A stretch of DNA of 46,609 bases, from positions 1 to 46,609 of the forward strand of contig LWTN01000236.1 of assembly GCA_002101225.1 (NCBI GenBank). The letters are read 5' to 3'. Shown piece by piece: positions 5,896-15,859 of the stretch. This DNA is from Cycloclasticus sp. symbiont of Poecilosclerida sp. M. GTDB taxonomy: Bacteria > Pseudomonadota > Gammaproteobacteria > Methylococcales > Cycloclasticaceae. The number at the start of each line of letters is the position of its first letter. Positions within the stretch are counted from its first letter, which is position 1. The position numbers and the translations under genes are program-made. The notes beneath the pieces were generated by a model. It did no database searches. It had not been told where the DNA came from and saw only the letters and a program-made list of their open reading frames with translations.

Positions 5896-7503
5896 TTAGT
5901 CGAAAAATGTCGGTGTTAGTTGCTGTATTTGAGGTGCTAATCCTGTTGCATAAGAAGAGCCTTTCTTAAAGCTTGCGCACGTTAATTGGCGAGCAATATG
6001 CCCCTGATTATCAACTGAAAGAATACCCGTGTGGCCATTAAAGCGAGCGGAATACTGATTTCTCAGTCTTTCAAGGTGAGGAATGACTTGGTAGGCGTCG
6101 AGGCCGAGCGAAAATAGACGTTGGTGTGTTCCGTGTACGTCAGGCCAGTTTTTTAATAATTCGGCGTGGCTGTTGGCGCCCCCACTTTCTTTATCAATTA
6201 TGGAAGGCATATCACAAAACTGAATGCCATCAAGGTCACGATCATTAGCAGAGTTTTCATTGCCCTCGTAAATCTTAGACGTGCTGTAAATAACCAAATC
6301 TGAGGCGCGGTGAAAACGGAATTGAGGGCGAATCAATCGAGCTTCGCGAGGTGATGCAATCAGAAAAATAAAGTCAATATCTTTGCGTCGCCTTTCTTCA
6401 AACTTAATGTCTAATCTTAATTTTTGTTTAAGCGTTTGATGTCGCTGAATGCTTTCGTCTAGCTTTAGTATTTCTTTAATAGGCACTGAGTAATCAGCTT
6501 GTTTGGGCGTGTATTTATTCGAATCTAATACGTTCCCGCCAAACTGCTGCCATAGCGTGATGAAGTGGTTTGATAGGCGATCGCCCAACCTTGTGTCTGG
6601 TGCAAAAACAATCACGTTTTTTAAGCCTCGAGTCCACGCTAGGCTAGCCACCTGCGTTATTTCTTTTTCGGGGCTTAAAGAGAATTGGTATAGGTTGTGC
6701 CTAGATGATCCGCCGGTCTCGTTTAGCGCCACAACAGGAATAGATAAAGAGCCACTACGACTAATCCTGTCAACATTTGTTTTATCAAACGGCCCGATAA
6801 CAGCCTTTGCGCCGTCTCTAACTGCGTGAGAATACAGCGCTTCAACGGGCGCGGCAGAGGTGTCATAAAAGGTGATACTAGGTCTCCATTGCTTTCTTAA
6901 CAAATAAGAAGCCGTTGTAATGCCTTTACGGATTGTTTTTGCGGCGGATGCGTAAGCGCCCCTGCTCGGTAAAAAGACAGCAACTTTGCTGGGTGTTTTG
7001 TAGGTTATTTGTCTATCTTCTAAGAACTGTGAAAGTGCGGGCCCATTGAAGCTATGCCGAGGGTTACTATTTTTCCAGCGCCCAATTGTTCTGCTTTGTG
7101 TGCCGGCTCTTGGTTGCAGTTTTAAGATTAAAGCAAGGTCAATCCAGCCTTTCATGTTGCGATTTGCAGATTGCTTGACTGTTTCTAACTCCTGCGTAGC
7201 TAATAGCGTTAGCGTTTCTACTATAGATTGTTGATTATCTTCTTTGGCCAGAGGGTTGGTTATCAACGCATCAATCTGGGCGCCCACGCGCGCGCTTTCG
7301 TATAACTTTCCTTCTTGTAGTAAAACCGTTCTTTGTAGCATTAACTCTCGAACGTGCTGTGGTTGGTTACCAAAGTTTACCGGTGCCAATTGTCCTGAAG
7401 GTCTTTTGAAAGATGGGTTTGAACAGCTCGTCAGAAGTAAACAAATGCACGTGATTACGCCAATCGTTTTTGAAGCATGTAAAATGGTTTTAAATAAATT
7501 CAT
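5896..7503 (-). CDS. lpoA: Penicillin-binding protein activator lipoprotein LpoA
   Basis: An outer-membrane lipoprotein that reaches through the peptidoglycan to stimulate PBP1A. The 535 residues start with a lipoprotein signal (LLLTSC, lipidated Cys27). An all-helical N-terminal region follows (about 45-150), then a periplasmic-binding-protein-like domain (about 165-530) opening with KVAVFLPSRGAYASAAK. It is shorter than the E. coli protein (678 residues), mainly in the N-terminal part, as is common in other gammaproteobacteria. It is the first gene of the lpoA-yraN-diaA-dolP unit and is divergent from rsmI with only 48 bp between them. Confidence 0.93.
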   Translation of the reverse strand: MNLFKTILHASKTIGVITCICLLLTSCSNPSFKRPSGQLAPVNFGNQPQHVRELMLQRTVLLQEGKLYESARVGAQIDALITNPLAKEDNQQSIVETLTLLATQELETVKQSANRNMKGWIDLALILKLQPRAGTQSRTIGRWKNSNPRHSFNGPALSQFLEDRQITYKTPSKVAVFLPSRGAYASAAKTIRKGITTASYLLRKQWRPSITFYDTSAAPVEALYSHAVRDGAKAVIGPFDKTNVDRISRSGSLSIPVVALNETGGSSRHNLYQFSLSPEKEITQVASLAWTRGLKNVIVFAPDTRLGDRLSNHFITLWQQFGGNVLDSNKYTPKQADYSVPIKEILKLDESIQRHQTLKQKLRLDIKFEERRRKDIDFIFLIASPREARLIRPQFRFHRASDLVIYSTSKIYEGNENSANDRDLDGIQFCDMPSIIDKESGGANSHAELLKNWPDVHGTHQRLFSLGLDAYQVIPHLERLRNQYSARFNGHTGILSVDNQGHIARQLTCASFKKGSSYATGLAPQIQQLTPTFFD

Positions 7504-7551: not shown

Positions 7552-8412
7552 ATGTCAAAGCTTAAAGGTACATTGTATATCGTTGCAACCCCAATTGGAC
7601 ATTTGGGAGACATTAGCCTGCGCGCAATAGAGGTGCTTAAACAAGTTGATCTGATTGCAGCTGAAGACACGAGGAATAGCAAGGTGCTGTTGAGCCACTA
7701 CACGATAGTAACACCGATGACGGCTTACCACGAGCACAACGAAAGCAATAAAGCGAAACAGTTGCTGGATAAATTAGAGCAAGGCGAATCCATTGCGCTA
7801 ATTTCCGATGCGGGCACGCCGCTGATAAATGACCCAGGTTTTACCCTAGTGGAGCAAGCGCGAGCGTTAGCTATAAATGTTGTACCTATTCCCGGTGCGT
7901 GTGCAATTATAGCGGCCTTGAGTTGTACAGGGCTTGCAACGGCCAAGTTTAGCTTTGAAGGTTTTTTGCCGAGAACGTCGGGCGCACGTAAAGCCATTTT
8001 TGAGTTGTATGTGAGTCAAAGCAACACTCTCGTTTTTTATGAATCAAGCCATCGAATCTTGAGTTGCCTAGAAGATATCGCCGACGTTTACGAGCCATCG
8101 CGAAAAATGGCTATTGCGCGCGAGCTGACAAAAACATACGAAACGGTTGTTAGTAAAACGGTTGAAGAGGTTTTACAAGTTGTCCAGTCAGACAAAAACA
8201 TGCAGCGTGGAGAGTTCGTCGTATTGATTGAAGGGCTAGATAGAAAGAAAAGCCAAGAAGAAGCGTTGTCAGATGAGACACTTGAACTGATTACAGTCTT
8301 ATTAACGGAGTGCAGCGTTAAAACGGCGGTTAAATTAGCGCTGCAGATTAGCGGCGCGTCAAAAAAAGATATTTACAAAGCGGCGTTAGAGCTTAACGAT
8401 AAAGCCAATTGA
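7552..8412 (+). CDS. rsmI: 16S rRNA (cytidine(1402)-2'-O)-methyltransferase
   Basis: It adds the 2'-O-methyl group to C1402 of 16S rRNA in the decoding centre. The 286-residue tetrapyrrole-methylase fold shows GTLYIVATPIGHLGDIS at the N-terminus, LIAAEDTRNSKVLL, ISDAGTPLINDPG and VPIPGACA, all diagnostic of RsmI. The last codons and stop (8406-8412) form part of the 19-bp direct repeat that bounds the island downstream. The insertion therefore left the reading frame intact. rnpB normally follows closely in related genomes; here it is 6.8 kb away. Confidence 0.97.
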   Translation: MSKLKGTLYIVATPIGHLGDISLRAIEVLKQVDLIAAEDTRNSKVLLSHYTIVTPMTAYHEHNESNKAKQLLDKLEQGESIALISDAGTPLINDPGFTLVEQARALAINVVPIPGACAIIAALSCTGLATAKFSFEGFLPRTSGARKAIFELYVSQSNTLVFYESSHRILSCLEDIADVYEPSRKMAIARELTKTYETVVSKTVEEVLQVVQSDKNMQRGEFVVLIEGLDRKKSQEEALSDETLELITVLLTECSVKTAVKLALQISGASKKDIYKAALELNDKAN

Positions 8413-8424
8413 GTCAAAATAAGT
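8406..8424 (+). repeat. Left copy of 19-bp direct repeat flanking the island
   Basis: CAATTGAGTCAAAATAAGT occurs here and, with no mismatch, at 15183-15201. The flanking bases differ on both sides (C/G here; A/C there). This copy contains the rsmI stop codon. Collapsing the two copies restores a continuous rsmI-to-rnpB sequence, as expected for a target-site duplication. Confidence 0.9.
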
Positions 8425-8454: not shown

Positions 8455-8928
8455 GGACAGAGGATTTGGGTTATGTTTATTTGTGTAAGTCCGCCATGGG
8501 TGGCCAGACTTTGGTTTGAAGTTTGGTTGTTGTTGCCTTAGTTTGGCTTGGTTAACCGCATAGTTAATGGTTTTTCCATCTAATATGGGTATGGGCTTTT
8601 GCCCTTTTCCAAACCTTTTACAAGGTAATATCTTGCCTTTGTGTAGAATCGTCACTTGCCCAGAAAATGACTCGCAAACCGTTATTTTGCAATGACCAAG
8701 TCGGTAGTCTTTGTTCTTGCTTTGTATTTGATACTCTTTATTTTTACACTGGCAAGTCAGGTTCTTTGAAAGGCTTTTAGTGCTTTGAATACTGAGGATT
8801 TGATGTAACTCATTTTAGTTGTGTAGCACTTCACGATGGGCATCTTGCGGCGAAGCGGTTTTTGTAATCTTCAATAAACGCAGGTAGGCGTTAGCCTCGT
8901 CTATTATTCTAGTAAGTTCAGAATGTGT
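8452..8928 (-). pseudogene. ISNCY-type transposase, C-terminal remnant
   Basis: Reading leftward, pieces in different frames join into one protein tail: SELTRIIDEANAYL, then LPAFIEDYKNRFAA, then DAHREVLHN and NELHQILSIQSTKSLSKNL, and finally VTILHKGKILPCKRFG to a stop. The EAN-x-(Y/F)-LP-x-F-I-x-DY-N-x-RFA and DAHR blocks are typical of the end of DDE transposases annotated as ISNCY family. At least two indels separate the pieces, and everything upstream, including the catalytic core, is gone. The short intact ORF at 8452-8655 is only the last piece. Homology stops at about 8928, where the promoter of the amyloid operon begins. Confidence 0.8.
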
Positions 8929-8956
8929 TGGTTATTTTTTTTATATGTACTATAAT
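8928..8956 (+). promoter_or_regulatory. Predicted sigma70 promoter of the amyloid-like operon
   Basis: A perfect TATAAT (8951-8956) lies 17 bp after TTGGTT (8928-8933). Transcription would begin near 8963, about 90 bp before the first gene. ATCTCA (8961-8966) and TGAGAT (8976-8981) form a short inverted repeat at the predicted start that could be an operator or a 5' stem. The -35 region sits right at the end of recognisable transposase homology, so the promoter came with the cargo or was formed at the junction. Confidence 0.6.
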
Positions 8957-9052: not shown

Positions 9053-9994
9053 ATGAATAAGACTTTTAAGAAAAACCTTTTGAGTGCAGCGACTATAGCA
9101 GCATTAACAACAACCGGTATGAGTGTGCAAGCAGCAGATTGGACTATTATACAGAACTTTAACGGCGCGACCTCACCAGTGCTAGACCAAGGTAACACAA
9201 CCTTAGTTACCGACTCTACCCAAGCAATTAACAGTATTGCGCTTAATTTAACGACTCCCGATGATCTGTTGAATGGTTCAAGCCAAGATGTGTCATTAAA
9301 TGGCAGTGCTAGTGTTGTCTTGACGCAGGGTGGTTCTGCTAATGTTCGAGCAACACAGGCATTGAATAATATCGTTGCAGATAATGTAGGTACGGGGCTT
9401 GTAAGTGCTGTGCTACAAACGATTTCAACGTCGCCAACTCTCACCACCCTAAGCCAAACCAGTGTGGGTGGAAGTGATAACGTACAAGCCATCAATAATG
9501 TAGACGCTCAGAACAGCATATTGGGGCTAAGCCAAACTTACGTGCCAGGTACTACGCTTAACCTTAATCAGGTAGATACAACCTCAGCCCGTGATCAGCA
9601 AGCAATAAACCGCGCTGAACTGACCGCAGATGGTGATGTAACGGGCATTTTACAAACCGCTACGGGAGCATCTGGGGCAACCACCTTTGAGCAAACAGGC
9701 ACTGCAGTTGGCCTTGTTCAGGCGGGCAACTTGATTGATATAGGTACTGGAAACAGTATTACAGGTGCGACAAATGTTGATCAACAGGTGTTTACCGGCG
9801 GTGTGACAACAATCCTAAACCAAACATCAAATACAGCACGCCAAGCACTTAATGCAATTGTTTATCTTACATCAGATGCTGCCTCGAATACAGAACAGGA
9901 ATTAACGCTTTCTGGTGCAACGACAACCTTTACCCAAAACGACACTACTAGCAGTGCTCAAGCAGGTAATTATGTAGGTACGAAGGGTACCTAA
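9053..9994 (+). CDS. Secreted curlin-like repeat protein, candidate amyloid subunit 1
   Basis: A 313-residue protein with a Sec signal peptide (about 1-28, cleavage after SVQA). The mature part starts ADWTIIQN and contains Q-A-x-N motifs at residues 57, 102, 145, 183, 223, 264 and 303, spaced 38-45 apart. Each lies after a T-T/L-x-x-Q strand, for example TTLSQ...NVQAIN. It is rich in Thr, Ser, Asn, Gln and Gly, nearly free of Lys after the signal, and has no Cys. Regular Gln/Asn ladders of this kind are seen in curlin-type beta-solenoid amyloids, though this is not the canonical 22-residue CsgA repeat. I start at the ATG at 9053 (GGAG at 9039-9042), not the TTG at 9023. It is the first gene of the operon and shares its mature N-terminus pattern with the fourth gene. 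Confidence 0.75.
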   Translation: MNKTFKKNLLSAATIAALTTTGMSVQAADWTIIQNFNGATSPVLDQGNTTLVTDSTQAINSIALNLTTPDDLLNGSSQDVSLNGSASVVLTQGGSANVRATQALNNIVADNVGTGLVSAVLQTISTSPTLTTLSQTSVGGSDNVQAINNVDAQNSILGLSQTYVPGTTLNLNQVDTTSARDQQAINRAELTADGDVTGILQTATGASGATTFEQTGTAVGLVQAGNLIDIGTGNSITGATNVDQQVFTGGVTTILNQTSNTARQALNAIVYLTSDAASNTEQELTLSGATTTFTQNDTTSSAQAGNYVGTKGT

Positions 9995-10006
9995 TCACCT
10001 TTCTCT

Positions 10007-10067
10007 AAAGGCTCTGTGCGGGGGTGTGTTTAATTTAATGTTTTTAGCACCTTGGCATAGAGCTTTT
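10007..10067 (+). other. Long imperfect RNA hairpin between operon genes 1 and 2
   Basis: AAAGGCTCTGTGC (10007-10019) can pair with GCATAGAGCTTTT (10055-10067) over 13 positions including two G-U pairs, with a 35-nt loop. It lies 13 bp after the stop of the first subunit gene and ends 18 bp before the next start. It lacks an immediate long T-tract, so a leaky terminator, RNA-processing or mRNA-stabilising element is more likely than a strict terminator. Such elements often set a high ratio of structural subunit to accessory proteins. Confidence 0.5.
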
Positions 10068-10085
10068 ATAATTTAAGGAGGTGTT

Positions 10086-10526
10086 GTGAGGCAATGCTTA
10101 CAACAGAGTGTTAAATCAGCGATGATGTTTTTTTGCTTGATATTGTTAACAATATCAAGCCTCGGCTTTTCGTCCTTGGCTCAATCCGAGGAAAGACGCG
10201 ATAATTGGCACAGTACCCTACCTGGGTTCCCCGAAGTGCCTTTAAACCTCCGCAGTGTAAATGAGGCGAATCAGATTAGTCGATCGTCGCGACGAATAGG
10301 CAGAGTGACTACAATTAATACCCCCCGCTTTGGCGTGGTTCAGGGGTTTAGAGTAACAGCACCAGACGGCTCGGTTTTTTTCGTGGATAACATTCAGTCA
10401 CCTAATTGTGCAGTATATGCACGGTATGTTGATCGCGGCTTTAGCAATACAGATTTCACGGTTGTCCCTAGAGCTAATACCAATAGCGTTAGTATTGGTA
10501 GTATTAATTTCGATAATTGCCGCTAA
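10086..10526 (+). CDS. Small secreted protein of the amyloid-like operon, two cysteines
   Basis: I do not recognise this family. The 146-residue product has a Sec signal peptide (hydrophobic core about 12-30, likely cleavage near FSSLAQ). The mature domain of about 113 residues has exactly two cysteines, Cys108 and Cys145, which probably form a disulfide in the periplasm. A central stretch (about 80-110, with GFRVTAPDGSVFFVDN) looks like beta-strands. The start is GTG with an unusually perfect AAGGAGG 4 bp upstream. Position between a fibre subunit and the CsgG-like lipoprotein suggests a chaperone, nucleator or adaptor comparable in role, not visibly in sequence, to CsgE, CsgF or HfaA. Confidence 0.7.
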   Translation: MRQCLQQSVKSAMMFFCLILLTISSLGFSSLAQSEERRDNWHSTLPGFPEVPLNLRSVNEANQISRSSRRIGRVTTINTPRFGVVQGFRVTAPDGSVFFVDNIQSPNCAVYARYVDRGFSNTDFTVVPRANTNSVSIGSINFDNCR

Positions 10527-10569
10527 CGATTAAAAGCATATACAAAAAAATAGGAATATTGGTGATAAA

Positions 10570-11985
10570 ATGAAAGGATTTTTTCCAATTGTAGCGATAG
10601 TATCCTGTTTAACAGGGTGTACCACTTATAGTATTAGCAAAATGGTAGAGGACTACCCCGTTAAAACACAAACCCAAATGAGTGGTGCACTACAATGTAT
10701 GGGAGGGAAGCTTAGAAATAATTCTGCCAATAACCCAGCTTACGTATTTTTAGTGCGTGATGTGATTGATGGCACGGTTAAAGAGGGTATGTATAACGAG
10801 GGTCCCTTAGCGGATGCAGGTAAAGTGCAACTGTCCAGTATCCTCAGTGCGCATACGATGCCTTCGTATGCGGTCATTGCAGATACGTTCCCAATGATAT
10901 TTTCATCTTTAGGTAATGAGGTGCTCGGGCTAAATCGCTATGGTATGCCAACAGATAGCAACATAAACAATTACTTATCCAAATTACTTGCTTATGTAAA
11001 TCTTAGCCGGCAACAAAGTGGTTTGCCACAAGTTAGCCGAATTATGCCATTGGTCATAGATGGTGCTTTTACACGCTTAGATGCTGCGCCAACAGTTTCC
11101 AGAGGCTATGGTCATAATGGCGGTTATCGTGGTGGAGATACAGAGGAGCGTAGCAGTGCCATTGATTTTGGTAAATCTATATCAGAACGTGCCATTACGT
11201 TGGTTTTGAATATTGTAGATCCACGTTTTAATACCATCGTTGGTACCGAATCATTTAACCTGACTTTCTATAACAACAGTAAAACAGCCCGATTCCGCGT
11301 GGGGATTAGCGATTTGTACTATGGATTTTCTAACACCGACGTGGTTGCAGAAAGTGTTCATGCAGCACAGCAAGCCTTACTAGATGCAGCAGCGGTTTGG
11401 ATTTTAGATAACGCGTATAAAAATAATGTTGCTTTTGAGGATTGTTTTAGCAGCCCAGAAGAAGCTGCTTTAGGGGCTGATGTGAGGACTAAACCAACAA
11501 CCCCACAATCTAAAGCAGCACCAGAAGCAGCACCAGAAGCAGCACCAGAAGCAGCACCAGAAGCAGCACCAGAAGCAGCACCAGAAGCAGCACCAGAAGC
11601 AGCACCAGAAGCAGCACCAGAAGCAGCACCAGAAGCAGCCAACAGTGACGCAGATGATAGCCATGCAGATCGTGTTGACAGTGAAGTAGCTGCAGCCACA
11701 GGTAAGAACAACGACATATCTGAAAAAACTGATGTGACTGAGTCGCCAGCAGATGCTGAACTACCTGTGAACGTTAAAGTAGTCACAACAGATAGTGTCA
11801 AAATGCGTGCCGAAGCGGTAACTGGAAACCTTATCAAATTCTTCGAAGCGGGTGAACATGTCGCCCTAATTGGAGTTTCAAAGAATGGTGACTGGAGTTT
11901 GGTTTATGATTCGGAAAAGCAGGAAGGCTGGGTTGCTTCTAAATATTTGAAACCATTAGGTGTAATCCCCCCAATAAATAATTAG
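10570..11985 (+). CDS. CsgG/HfaB-like lipoprotein with AAPE repeat linker and SH3 domain
   Basis: A 471-residue lipoprotein (LTG-Cys17). Residues about 30-300 resemble the CsgG/HfaB group: an early ALQCM, then VFLVRDVIDGTVKEG, a nucleotide-free alpha/beta layout, and a late helix AAQQALLDAAAVWILDNAY like the C-terminal helix of CsgG. CsgG forms the outer-membrane channel that exports curli subunits. Here the domain is followed by ten tandem AAPE units (316-355), an acidic spacer and a bacterial SH3 domain (about 400-467, ending in GWVASKYL) that could bind peptidoglycan. The C-terminal extension is not part of classical CsgG. The last eight codons lie inside a 24-bp sequence identical to the IS3 left end, so the natural C-terminus may have been changed. 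The CsgG relationship is judged by eye and should be treated as probable. Confidence 0.6.
   Translation: MKGFFPIVAIVSCLTGCTTYSISKMVEDYPVKTQTQMSGALQCMGGKLRNNSANNPAYVFLVRDVIDGTVKEGMYNEGPLADAGKVQLSSILSAHTMPSYAVIADTFPMIFSSLGNEVLGLNRYGMPTDSNINNYLSKLLAYVNLSRQQSGLPQVSRIMPLVIDGAFTRLDAAPTVSRGYGHNGGYRGGDTEERSSAIDFGKSISERAITLVLNIVDPRFNTIVGTESFNLTFYNNSKTARFRVGISDLYYGFSNTDVVAESVHAAQQALLDAAAVWILDNAYKNNVAFEDCFSSPEEAALGADVRTKPTTPQSKAAPEAAPEAAPEAAPEAAPEAAPEAAPEAAPEAAPEAAPEAANSDADDSHADRVDSEVAAATGKNNDISEKTDVTESPADAELPVNVKVVTTDSVKMRAEAVTGNLIKFFEAGEHVALIGVSKNGDWSLVYDSEKQEGWVASKYLKPLGVIPPINN
11515..11634 (+). repeat. Ten perfect 12-bp tandem repeats (AAPE linker)
   Basis: The unit GCAGCACCAGAA repeats ten times without a mismatch and encodes Ala-Ala-Pro-Glu, continuing briefly as GCAGCC. 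The lack of silent changes indicates recent expansion. Copy number is likely to vary between strains by slippage, always in frame because the unit is 12 bp. It separates the membrane-proximal domain from the SH3 domain. Confidence 0.97.
11960..11983 (+). repeat. Solitary copy of the IS3 left terminus inside a gene end
   Basis: The 24 bases here, starting GTGTAATCCCCCCAATAA, are identical to 13298-13321, the left end of the IS3 element plus one flanking base. They encode the last residues (GVIPPINN) of the CsgG-like protein, and its stop codon TAG spans the end of the match. It may be the scar of an earlier insertion and deletion by the same element. Confidence 0.85.
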
Positions 11986-12022
11986 CAACTTGCGTATATT
12001 ATTCCAAGCAGAAGGTCGCCAA

Positions 12023-12790
12023 ATGATGGGAAGAAAAATAGCCTTATCAATCTGTGTTTCAACGTTTTTAATAGCCTTTACTAACGCGTCAGCAAATGAT
12101 TGGAATGTGGTGCAGAATGCGCAGATAAACACTATAACGCTCAATCAAGGTAGCGCAGCAGCTACAGATAATTCACTACAAGGCGTTAATGTTGTTAATT
12201 TAGCAGCAGGGGATACGCTGTCTAATACCACTCAGACGACAGACTTTTCTGGTGGCGCTGTTTTTGAATTAAGGCAGTCAGGCGCAGGCAACAATAATGT
12301 GCAGTCGGTGAATATCGCCAGAGCATCAAGATTGACCGACATAACGCAACGGGTAACCGGGTTTGCAACGGCGCAAATGACACAGAATGTTACGGGTACT
12401 AATAATGTTCAAGCGTTGAATTATGCACGTTCAACATCAACAGCCGAAAATGTGACACAAGACGTTACAGGAGGCACAGTGACGATAACTAATACAGGAA
12501 CACCGGCAGATACTAACACCCAGGCACTTAATTATCTGCAATCCACCGGTGATGCCAGTGGCACTTTGAGTCAAAGCGTAACGCTTACTACTTTAAATGT
12601 CATCGGCAGTGCAGAGACCGGTAGTGTTCGCGGACAGGCGGCTAATGTATTGCTTGTGAATAATGCTGTCGCTGTGTCTGCCAGCGCTACAACGAACCAG
12701 AGCTTAGCTGTGGGTACGATAAATATAACACGTGATCCAGTATCTACTGCTCCTGTTGCTCTCTATCTTAACCGCATTATTGCTAATTAA
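12023..12790 (+). CDS. Secreted curlin-like repeat protein, candidate amyloid subunit 2
   Basis: A 255-residue paralogue of the first subunit. A signal peptide (about 1-24, NASA cleavage) precedes a mature start NDWNVVQN, matching ADWTIIQN. Q-x-x-N motifs occur at residues 53, 94, 130, 167 and 205, spaced 36-41. The second repeat, RQSGAGNNNVQSVNIA, is the closest match in the window to the curlin pattern Q-x-G-x-x-N...Q. No Cys follows the signal region. I use the ATG at 12023, with AGAAGG 8 bp upstream, in place of the TTG at 11990. It starts 37 bp after the CsgG-like gene and ends the operon. One of the two paralogues may be the nucleator and the other the major subunit. Confidence 0.75.
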   Translation: MMGRKIALSICVSTFLIAFTNASANDWNVVQNAQINTITLNQGSAAATDNSLQGVNVVNLAAGDTLSNTTQTTDFSGGAVFELRQSGAGNNNVQSVNIARASRLTDITQRVTGFATAQMTQNVTGTNNVQALNYARSTSTAENVTQDVTGGTVTITNTGTPADTNTQALNYLQSTGDASGTLSQSVTLTTLNVIGSAETGSVRGQAANVLLVNNAVAVSASATTNQSLAVGTINITRDPVSTAPVALYLNRIIAN

Positions 12791-12805: not shown

Positions 12806-13018
12806 CAGGAAAAGATAAAAGGGTCAGATGAGGTCTTAAAAAGCGAGTCCAATTTAAGCATTGTTGATAATTTCCGTCGAACGGTTTTCCTGATTTTAAT
12901 ACGCCATAAGCAGGCACTAACAGTTTCCGCATAACGGCAATTAGGGCTGCTTTTTTGGGGTTTCTTTTTTGGCCTGTAAGGGATGGTATAAATCCATCAT
13001 TTGTTGGTTGAACCTATT
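12806..13018 (-). pseudogene. IS110-family transposase, C-terminal remnant
   Basis: Reading leftward, RFNQQMMDLYHPLQAKK is followed, after a one-base loss in an A-run near 12980, by KKAALIAVMRKLLVPAYGVL and SGKPFDGNY. The KKAL-x-A-x-MRKLL block is the conserved C-terminal end of IS110/IS1111 transposases. Further frame slips follow before a stop near 12806. Nothing of the DEDD catalytic domain is present. It lies between the amyloid operon and a phosphofructokinase fragment. Confidence 0.8.
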
Positions 13019-13024
13019 GTTGCC

Positions 13025-13298
13025 GGCATGATTAAGTCTGCGTATGGTTACAAATACCACTGGGCCGTGGTATATTATTTACAACGCGCCCTCGACATAC
13101 CGCATCAAAGACAGACGTTGAGCAAGTATACTACGTCATGGGAAAGGCCGCTTTAGAGTCGGCACTTGATGGTGAAACCGCCGTCATGCCGACTATTGTT
13201 CGCACTTGCAATAAACCCTTATCAATGGGGAATTGGCACAGGAGAACTAAAAGATGTTGCCAATATGGAACAAAAATTACCGCCTGACTATATCAGTG
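13025..13298 (+). pseudogene. PPi-type 6-phosphofructokinase, C-terminal fragment
   Basis: In shifting frames this encodes YGYKYHWAVVYYLQRA, then HIASKTDVEQ, YYVMGKAALESALDGETAVM and PTIVRTCN, ending with VANMEQKLPPDYIS. These match the C-terminal half of pyrophosphate-dependent or PfkA-like phosphofructokinases. At least three indels break it, and the gene is cut at 13298/13299 by the left end of IS3. The expected continuation is not found on the right side of the IS, so flanking DNA was deleted. It is non-functional. Confidence 0.8.
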
Positions 13299-13377
13299 TG
13301 TAATCCCCCCAATAAATAATTGGAGTTTTAAGTAGAAAATTCTCATAATCTAAACAGAGGACTTTTCTATGACTAGG

Positions 13378-13654
13378 TGCCCCTTGAGGGTAAAACATCA
13401 CGCTACACAGACAGTCAGATTTTGGCGATTTTGAAACAAAACGAAGCAGGTATTGCTGTACCTGATCTCTGCCGTGAGCACGGCATGAGTTCCGCCAGCT
13501 TTTATAAGTGGCGCGCTAAATTTGGTGTATGGATGCTTCCATGATGAAGCGCATGAAACAGCTTGAAGATGAAAATCGACGTCTCAAGAAGATGTACGCC
13601 GAAGAAAAGCTAAAGGCAGAAATCGCCCGCGAGGCCATTGAAAAAAAGTGGTAA
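13378..13654 (+). pseudogene. IS3 orfA (helix-turn-helix), frameshifted
   Basis: This reads KTSRYTDSQILAILKQ then LCREHGMSSASFYKWRAKFG, the DNA-binding helix-turn-helix of IS3 OrfA. It then loses one base near 13527 (where GGMDASM would be expected) and hits a stop. The next frame continues MMKRMKQLEDENRRLKKMYA, the leucine-zipper region, to the TAA at 13652-13654. The start is also unclear: the ATG at 13369 is out of frame with the homology. OrfA is probably inactive, which would silence the IS. Confidence 0.85.
13642..13648 (+). promoter_or_regulatory. Programmed -1 frameshift site of IS3
   Basis: A AAA AAG at the end of orfA fits the X XXY YYZ slippery heptamer. Slipping back one base joins the orfA frame (stop at 13654) to the orfB frame (GTG GTA AAG from 13648), giving the OrfAB transposase, as known for IS3 elements. 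Confidence 0.8.
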
Positions 13655-14472
13655 AGCCATCTCGACGTAAAGAGATGGCGCATCATGCAGTATCTGAATA
13701 CACAACCAGCATTCGTGTTGCTTGTGATGTATTCTCTATCAGCGAAACCTGTTATCGCTATACCGCAAAACTTAGTGATGAAAATGCCGAAATAGCTGAT
13801 TGGTTATTGCGGCTAAGTCTCACCCACAAACGCTGGGGGTTTGGCCTGATCTATTTCTACCTACGCAACATCAAGGGCTTCACTTGGAACCATAAACGCG
13901 TCTATCGCATTTACAGAGAGCTTGAATTGAATCTACGCATAAAGCCTAGACGACGCATTAAAAGAGATAAACCTGAAGCACTCAGCGTACCTGAACAGAT
14001 CAATCAAGTTTGGTCTATGGACTTTATGAGCGATAGCTTGATGGATGGTCGAAGACTTCGCACATTTAATGTTATTGATGACTTTAACCGTGAAGGCTTA
14101 GGCATTGATGTTGATTTTTCAATGCCAAGCACGCGAGTTATCCGCTCACTTGAACAAATCATCCAATGGCGAGGCAAGCCATCTGCTATTCGGTGTGACA
14201 ATGGCCCTGAGTACATCAGTCAAACTTTTCGGGACTGGACAATAAAGCATCAAATTACGTTACTTTATATTCAGCCCGGGAAGCCAACACAAAATGCTTA
14301 TATCGAACGTTTTAATCGTACAGCCCGGCATGAATGGTTAGATTTACATCTTTTTAAATCAATAGCAGATGCCCAAAACTTGGCCACAGAATGGCTTTGG
14401 ACATATAATAATGAACGACCTCATACAGCGATAGGTGGTGTGCCACCTAGGTATTTGCTGAATGTGGCTTAA
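13648..14472 (+). CDS. IS3-family transposase OrfB (DDE)
   Basis: The 274 residues contain the rve integrase core: Asp in VWSMDFMSD (about 127), Asp in IRCDNGPEY (about 190) and Glu in NAYIERFNRT (about 225), the DDE triad with the usual IS3 spacing. An N-terminal HTH_21 region (HKRWGFGLIYFYLRN) precedes it. The first codon is GTG immediately after the slippery site, so the product is likely made mainly as an OrfAB fusion. The orf itself is intact, but orfA is not. Confidence 0.93.
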   Translation: MVKPSRRKEMAHHAVSEYTTSIRVACDVFSISETCYRYTAKLSDENAEIADWLLRLSLTHKRWGFGLIYFYLRNIKGFTWNHKRVYRIYRELELNLRIKPRRRIKRDKPEALSVPEQINQVWSMDFMSDSLMDGRRLRTFNVIDDFNREGLGIDVDFSMPSTRVIRSLEQIIQWRGKPSAIRCDNGPEYISQTFRDWTIKHQITLLYIQPGKPTQNAYIERFNRTARHEWLDLHLFKSIADAQNLATEWLWTYNNERPHTAIGGVPPRYLLNVA

Positions 14473-14511
14473 CCTCTACTTTTAACTTCGGTTATGAATG
14501 GGGGGATTACA

Positions 14512-14685
14512 GGTTCAGCTTTTTCAAAGACTGTAATTGCAATATCGCTTTATCAATTTTTGACTCTGTGACATGCTCAAGCGCGGACATAAGAAGCTTT
14601 TCTGAGCGAAAGCTTAAAAGATTTATTTGTATTGTTACCTGCACGTTCTTCTGCCGACTCTGCTATTTGTATCACTAAAACAAGC
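14512..14685 (-). other. Coding-like remnant of unknown origin
   Basis: The stretch right of IS3 reads on the minus strand as QINLLSFRSEKLLMSALEHV then TESKIDKAILQLQSLKKLN without a stop, ending at the IS3 border. The composition is protein-like. The end faintly recalls the C-terminal ACT-type tail of homoserine dehydrogenases, but the match is too short to name. It is probably a gene fragment cut by IS3. Confidence 0.35.
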
Positions 14686-14799: not shown

Positions 14800-15078
14800 T
14801 TAAGTGTTTGAGCGATATCTTTGCACAAACCTAACAACAGCTTCGTTATTACTGTTAAGTACTACTTTCACATCACTCAATAGAACTTCAATAAACTTAG
14901 GTTTACTCAACTTCTTCTTACGGCTTACTTTCCATTGCGAAAACTCCAAATTAGGTGGCAATATCAATGCTGTTGAATAACTCTGTAAATACTTATCAAA
15001 ATCTTGAGCTACCCATGCGCTCGCCCAGTTATTAACTGCTAGCTCTAATTCTACGCTCATCTTATTAAACCCATTCAC
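14800..15078 (-). pseudogene. NTF2-like (Cds6-type) domain fragment
   Basis: The 92 residues contain NNWASAWVAQDFDKYLQSYS, later ILPPNLEFSQWKVSRKKKL and VVRFVQRYRS. This W-x-x-AW-s-x-qD-x-x-x-YL...F-x-QxY-xS pattern is that of the C-terminal NTF2-like domain found after TPR or L,D-transpeptidase modules in envelope proteins. It stops at RYRSNT, where intact relatives continue for another strand or two, and has no N-terminal partner. The frame is open further upstream to about 15137 without a convincing start. It is probably a fragment trapped between the IS30-like end and the island's right end. Confidence 0.55.
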
Positions 15079-15182: not shown

Positions 15183-15201
15183 CAATTGAGTCAAAATAAG
15201 T
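15183..15201 (+). repeat. Right copy of the 19-bp direct repeat
   Basis: Identical to 8406-8424 (CAATTGAGTCAAAATAAGT). It directly precedes the promoter region of rnpB. A 19-bp duplication is long for most IS families. From memory, some ISNCY/IS1202-type elements do make duplications of this order, which fits the transposase remnant at the left end. Confidence 0.9.
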
Positions 15202-15234: not shown

Positions 15235-15593
15235 CGGAGTTGGCCAGGCAGTCGCTCTGCGCAAGCAGGGAGGAAAGTCCGGGCTTCATAGGGTAAAGTG
15301 CCAGGTAACGCCTGGGGGGCGTGAGCCTACGGATAGTGCAGCAGAAAGTAAACCGCCTAAGTCTCTCGTAGACCGGTAAGGGTGAAATGGTGCGGTAAGA
15401 GCGCACCGCGTGTGCGGCAACGTATCACGGCGATGGTAAACCCCACTTGAAGCAAGACCAAATAGAGAAGCGGTAACGCAAGTTACAACGTGTGGCCCAC
15501 ACGGCTTCTGGGTAGGTCGCTCGAGGTGCTCGGTGACGAGCATCCCAGATGAATGACTGTCCACGACAGAACCCGGCTTATCGGCCAACTCCA
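15235..15593 (+). ncRNA. rnpB: RNase P RNA, bacterial type A
   Basis: This is the catalytic RNA that trims tRNA 5' leaders. The 5' strand of P1, GGAGTTGGCC (15236-15245), pairs perfectly with GGCCAACTCC (15583-15592). The P4 strands and core are present: GAGGAAAGTCCGGGC near the 5' end, ACAGAACCCGGCTTA near the 3' end, and the conserved AGGGTGAAATGGTGCGGTAA region. About 358 nt is normal for type A. In Pseudomonas-type genomes rnpB lies between rsmI and mraZ, as it does here apart from the island. Reverse-strand ORFs in this stretch are spurious. Confidence 0.97.
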
Positions 15594-15859
15594 TTTTAAT
15601 GTTATGTTGTAAGTACTAAATTATTGAAATTCATAGTGATTGCTTGAATTCGGCAGGTCTTGCCGATTATTCGTGATTTCCCCGTTTATTTTTGTCGCCC
15701 ACTCAAAGGGTTGAAGTTATTCAGTTTTCTCATTAAGAAAGCATCACAACTTTCTGATTTATAACATCTTTATTTCTCACATTAGCCGTATACATTTTTA
15801 TGTCGGCAAAACATTGCTAAGTCCTTGTTCGTAAACAAAGTATTTATGGAATTTGGTGC
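15594..15859. other. Intergenic stretch between rnpB and the mraZ promoter
   Basis: AT-rich, with no supported gene. A small hairpin CGGCA/TGCCG (15651-15655 with 15661-15665) may be a weak terminator or processing site for rnpB, but it has no T-tract. Confidence 0.6.

Follow-up and report, generated by a model that had tools for sequence, protein, structure and literature searches.

Gene organization and genomic island

The window, i.e. the whole stretch of 46,609 nucleotides analysed here, stems from a Cycloclasticus sponge symbiont whose genome (2.3 Mb) belongs to the same genus as the Cycloclasticus sponge symbiont G039 (LWTM01000075). Four co-oriented genes with small gaps, here named A to D, had been proposed to form an operon on this DNA, and their order, strand and coordinates were all found to be correct (Table 1). 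The gaps A/B, B/C and C/D amount to 91, 43 and 37 bp, respectively, and gene C as a whole covers the positions 10570-11985 (471 aa). All four genes are open and each of them possesses a plausible ribosome-binding site. Gene B has a GTG start and is preceded by AAGGAGG. With a G+C content of 0.44, the operon does not deviate from the remainder of the window.

A single strong promoter, which had also been suggested, could not be substantiated: the region contains 12 promoter-like sites, while 11.2 were expected from shuffled sequences. Judged by eye, the sequence TTGGTT-17-TATAAT (8928-8956) combines a perfect -10 region with a poor -35 region. The top-scoring intergenic site (TTAGCA-17-TATAAT, 10044-10072) sits ahead of gene B.

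Table 1. Positions of the operon genes and of the features of the surrounding island
Feature	Position	Strand	Description
Left 19-bp direct repeat	8406..8424	.	CAATTGAGTCAAAATAAGT; contains the rsmI stop codon; left island edge
Gene A	9053..9994	+	313 aa; exported Q/N-ladder repeat protein, probable fibre subunit
Gene B	10086..10526	+	146 aa; small exported two-Cys protein, candidate accessory factor
Gene C, first part	10570..11484	+	lipoprotein with predicted CsgG-type fold; predicted outer-membrane secretion channel
Gene C, tail	11485..11985	+	(PEAA)n linker, then SH3_3-like domain; probable cell-wall tether
Gene D	12023..12790	+	255 aa; second exported repeat protein, paralogue of A
IS3-type transposase (orfB)	13648..14472	+	inside the island; rve_3 E=2.8e-25, rve E=3e-22, HTH_21 E=8e-8
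Right 19-bp direct repeat	15183..15201	.	34 bp ahead of rnpB; right island edge
rnpB	15236-15596		

Between rsmI and rnpB, the operon is part of an island of 6.8 kb bounded by exact 19-bp direct repeats; none were expected in shuffled sequences. In two relatives (L069 and L070) rnpB comes after rsmI at a distance of no more than about 50 bp, and at L068 about 240 bp separate the two genes. The genome of L070 carries the operon at another place, near htpG (L052). The simplest interpretation is that the operon moved horizontally. The 19-bp repeat is long for an ordinary target duplication of an insertion sequence.

Some further features of the island were noted. The region 12870-13290 downstream of gene D contains no intact long open reading frame and resembles mobile-element remnants, and a short open reading frame on the minus strand (14800-15078) encoding a Cds6_C NTF2-like domain (E=4.8e-11) is apparently a gene fragment. 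The sequence GTGTAATCCCCCCAATAAATAATT at the very end of gene C (11960-11983) has an exact second copy at 13298-13321, on the left flank of the IS3 element, and the beginning of GTGTAATCCCCCCAATAAATAATT is found again in inverted orientation past the transposase as AATGGGGGGATTACAG (about 14496-14512). Because of this recurrence, the final codons and the stop of C may derive from an old insertion-sequence end. The transposase, the direct repeat and the gene fragment would also be compatible with the operon being island cargo that has no present function in the host strain. We regard this as highly improbable, since none of the four genes is interrupted or lacks a plausible ribosome-binding site, and since other genomes carry them in unchanged order at about 24-58% identity.

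The repeat proteins A and D and the small protein B

The products of genes A and D are paralogues, as indicated by BLASTP (E=2e-5) and by a profile-profile comparison (99.2%, E=2.6e-19), which yielded a score of 135 against a maximum of 17.6 for shuffled profiles. By inspection, A possesses a signal peptide. The mature proteins have the predicted near-identical starts, ADWTIIQN in A and NDWNVVQN in D, both of which fit D-W-x-[IV]-[IV]-Q-N. Similarly, the regular ladder stood up to a statistical test: the motif Q-[AGSV]-x-N occurs seven times in A and five times in D, whereas 0.83 occurrences were expected in each of them (P<0.0005).

Self-comparison disclosed a period mostly of 36 to 42 aa. 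For D, z-scores of 3.8 at 36 aa (window) and 4.7 at 37 aa (L052) were obtained, and for A of 3.7 at 39 aa (L053) and, more weakly, 2.7 at 40 aa (window). The repeats had been described as about twice as long as the CsgA unit. They are longer than the curlin unit of 23 aa (PMC10192328), but "about twice" is slightly generous because the actual ratio is approximately 1.6-1.8. Homologues of A exist at L052 (two copies), L053 and L047, and D is conserved at L052, L053, L054 and L045. Across the loci, D comprises 235-263 aa and A, which is sometimes duplicated, 313-488 aa.

Structure prediction, one of the checks that had been recommended, gave a confident all-beta, solenoid-like AlphaFold model for D (pLDDT 84, pTM 0.87). 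It was built from four sequences, and regular beta predictions on such a basis can turn out over-regular. Strand-rich segments recur in the model every ~36-37 aa, a spacing like that of the sequence repeat. Among solved structures no confident relative of the model was found; solved FapC ranked only 27th (E=0.9). Viral models gave weak matches, several of which are named 'Curlin associated' (E 0.04 and above). Given the predicted beta-rich structure of D, A and D may be capable of forming amyloid.

By sequence the two proteins are not curlins. Their hhalign scores were at decoy level, there was no match to Pfam curlin (PF07012), and the curlin kernel N-x-phi-x-phi-x-Q was found not once in A and twice in D, compared to five times in CsgA and six times in CsgB. 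Gene A matched no family of Pfam or NCBIfam.

Gene B lies directly 5' of C at every locus whose contig extends that far. Its mature product contains two cysteines, in agreement with the proposed small exported two-Cys protein, and a conserved block G-x-V...VDNI..P-x-C. The gene order B before C parallels csgF before csgG, and by eye QPSFAYGEVNNSKLL of B looks like the CsgF start NPNFGGNPNNGAFLL; the statistics gave this likeness no backing, and it serves as no more than a lead. B was rejected as a divergent CsgF (hhalign score 9.7 versus a decoy mean of 10.8; no pairwise z above 2) and likewise as CsgE, the similarity to which did not exceed that of shuffled sequences.

The lipoprotein C

Gene C encodes a lipoprotein with the lipobox LTGC, the lipid-carrying cysteine of which is invariant, as are two further cysteines. 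The lipid-carrying cysteine is followed by a threonine, and by the usual sorting rule C is therefore expected at the outer membrane. Pfam CsgG (PF03783) did not match C at E<=1, nor did NCBIfam recognise the protein; moreover, the PF03783 scan of the genome gave no match and sequence searches of the PDB with C yielded nothing relevant. Profile comparison disclosed a distant similarity. The C profile reached 92% against eleven CsgG-family proteins with the signal peptides included. Without signal peptides it scored 31.6, compared to 18.1 for the best of 60 shuffled decoys and 15.6 for the reversed profile, at a nominal probability of only 16%. Against curli-type CsgG alone the score was not above the decoys, a comparison that with three sequences is too narrow.

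The AlphaFold model of C (six sequences) is of modest confidence (mean pLDDT 61, pTM 0.66). Its best 15 Foldseek matches in the PDB were all CsgG (best E=1.2e-6), with TM-scores of only 0.3-0.4. The order of strands and helices agrees with CsgG, and low-confidence insertions (model residues 155-190 and 219-245) are located at the positions of the two transmembrane hairpins of CsgG. C also contains a conserved loop DGPL-[AS]-D, in which G, L and the last D are invariant and which lies near the position of the CsgG constriction loop. Profile score, Foldseek ranking, strand and helix order, insertions and loop combine to make a CsgG-type fold of C likely. Of the proposed assignment as a CsgG/HfaB-like lipoprotein, the CsgG part holds for the predicted fold and for the profile score above decoys, but not for membership in PF03783.

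The next structural matches of the model were PelC (E=2.4e-4), HpaA and GNA1162, CsgG-fold lipoproteins without a known role as protein channels. C could accordingly be imagined as a lipoprotein that, like PelC or GNA1162, makes a ring in the periplasm but no protein channel, A and D being periplasmic or exported otherwise, and the low confidence of the hairpin regions would fit this idea. We consider it quite unlikely: the best E-value of CsgG lies two orders of magnitude below that of the next structure, both hairpin positions carry insertions, the operon holds no other gene for an outer-membrane pore, and C is strictly linked to the repeat subunits. On the basis of the insertions at the hairpin positions, C would rather form a pore in the outer membrane, as the nonameric CsgG does.

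The tail of C contains a 12-bp repeat array. Its SH3_3 domain (E=2.9e-5) attained 24.6 bits, just under the cut-off of 27 bits. SPOR replaces the SH3_3-like domain in C of L054 (E=1.9e-12) and, weakly, of L052 (E=0.058), while the domain scans recognised no tail domain in C of L045 and L053. Matches of other genomes to the PEAA linker were discarded because of their low complexity. Since the C-terminal region of CsgG faces the periplasm (PMC12822426), it is plausible by analogy that the tail tethers the channel to the cell wall. Fusions of CsgG-family proteins with wall-binding-type domains are not unprecedented, as three lipoproteins outside curli (L022, L023 and L036) match PF03783 and have ends that by inspection resemble a peptidoglycan-binding domain. 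These proteins differ from C in that they are recognised by PF03783, whereas C is not and carries tails of the SH3 or SPOR type.

Distribution and relation to known export systems

The C family was present in four of the 311 genomes of the order and in two more genomes of one genus among 369 of the class; no additional genome was found among 398 of the phylum. Searches with the D profile identified A/D-type proteins in two of the 311 genomes of the order, and B-type proteins occurred in three of 146, in each case together with C. Thus, in the survey for conservation that had been named as a check, the gene set recurred, and A/D and B were never encountered without C in the order surveyed. A pattern scan of ~85,000 species genomes, which used an alignment, revealed five loci (Cycloclasticus, Crenothrix, Methylomonas and two gammaproteobacterial MAGs); a single-sequence query had found none. 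Since distant relatives escape the pattern scan, these five loci are a minimum. L052 (with two A genes), L053, L047 (same place as L045) and L046 all show the order A-B-C-D, which thus exists in another Cycloclasticus, in one MAG and in two further genomes. The contig of L054, a MAG, starts at C and carries C-D. Plasmids, phages and viral contigs gave no match to the operon. The gene set is rare and occurs in a few oil-, methane- and sponge-associated bacteria.

With the curli system of E. coli (csgBAC/csgDEFG) the operon shares a lipoprotein with a predicted CsgG-type fold, a pair of exported repeat subunits that are paralogues, a gene for a small exported protein directly 5' of the channel gene, and Q/N-rich stacking repeats. 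It differs by its repeat of about 36-40 aa with the motif Q-[AGSV]-x-N instead of the curlin kernel, by the channel gene between the subunit genes, and by the SH3/SPOR-type tail of the channel. As predicted, CsgE and CsgF are missing; PF10614 and PF10627 are absent from the genome. Some accepted curli operons are also devoid of csgE and csgF (PMC3521004). Because PF03783, curlin, CsgE and CsgF all gave no match, the operon falls outside the curli family by sequence. The designation as a curli-like minimal export-and-fibre system consequently fits the part concerned with export and the overall principle, but by sequence not the subunits, since the repeats of A and D are not curlin repeats. In the Fap system of Pseudomonas, the imperfect repeats of exported proteins likewise form a beta-solenoid (PMC12822426), but this system is a six-gene operon with other accessory proteins; at the thresholds used, none of the proteins A to D matched a Fap-named family of Pfam or NCBIfam.

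HfaABD of Caulobacter crescentus, likened here by description, comprises a CsgG-like lipoprotein and two exported surface proteins; HfaB is needed for the outer-membrane targeting of these two, one curlin-like and one adhesin-like (PMC6707917). The NCBIfam scans gave no relevant match. By the logic of a holdfast anchor, C would export A and D to build a short anchor that binds polysaccharide or a host surface, and not long fibres. The same count of parts in Caulobacter (PMC6707917), wall-binding-type tails that would suit a load-bearing anchor, and a sponge symbiont as one of the hosts speak for it. Nevertheless, we think such an anchor rather unlikely, because the loci that were read closely contain no linked polysaccharide genes and because A and D are paralogous to each other, a relationship not described for HfaA and HfaD, which were compared by description only.

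None of the outcomes that the original prediction had named as speaking against it, namely lack of a CsgG fold, a non-solenoid prediction for both repeat proteins and lack of co-occurrence, was observed. The SH3/SPOR tails, the mobile island and the short form of the operon go beyond that prediction. The operon is best read as putative CsgG-type export of non-curlin subunits that would form a fibre, a mode of action like that of curli or Hfa export, and we consider it fairly probable that it encodes a CsgG-type export and surface-fibre system which is not curli. In this system, A and D would cross the inner membrane by means of their Sec signal peptides. C, as an outer-membrane lipoprotein, would make a ring whose two inserted hairpins constitute the pore, while its SH3- or SPOR-type tail may reach the cell wall. 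A and D would leave through C, probably unfolded, and outside the cell would fold into Q/N-stacked beta-solenoids joining end to end. A may be the main subunit, with D acting as anchor or nucleator, and B might help C in the periplasm or at the surface. That the genes even represent a separate CsgG-type secretion lineage with channel, subunit and accessory families of its own, a swappable SH3/SPOR wall tether and a non-curlin beta-solenoid fibre with rungs of ~37 residues, we consider somewhat less likely than not.

Literature on Cycloclasticus and curli, CsgG and SPOR, or CsgG and Crenothrix contained no report of such a system. Published curli surveys rely on Csg models (PMC3521004, PMC12822426) and would probably miss the operon, because it does not match Pfam CsgG, CsgE, CsgF or curlin. 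If the fibre-export reading is true, the range of fibre subunits served by CsgG-type export extends beyond curlin and HfaA. C would then be a candidate channel with a swappable wall-binding tail, by which the fixation of such channels in the envelope becomes testable. The operon adds a candidate surface structure to a sponge symbiont and to methane oxidisers.

A short form of the operon exists in Crenothrix and Methylomonas, consisting of a single, small repeat protein of 132-146 aa, B, C and one additional exported protein. Just 5' of its repeat gene, divergent HTH_3 regulators are encoded (positions 5958-6353 in Crenothrix L055 and 6678-7193 in Methylomonas L056), which possibly control the operon. 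In Crenothrix, an extra small exported protein of 106 aa without a Pfam match is encoded between the repeat gene and B (L055 6957-7277).
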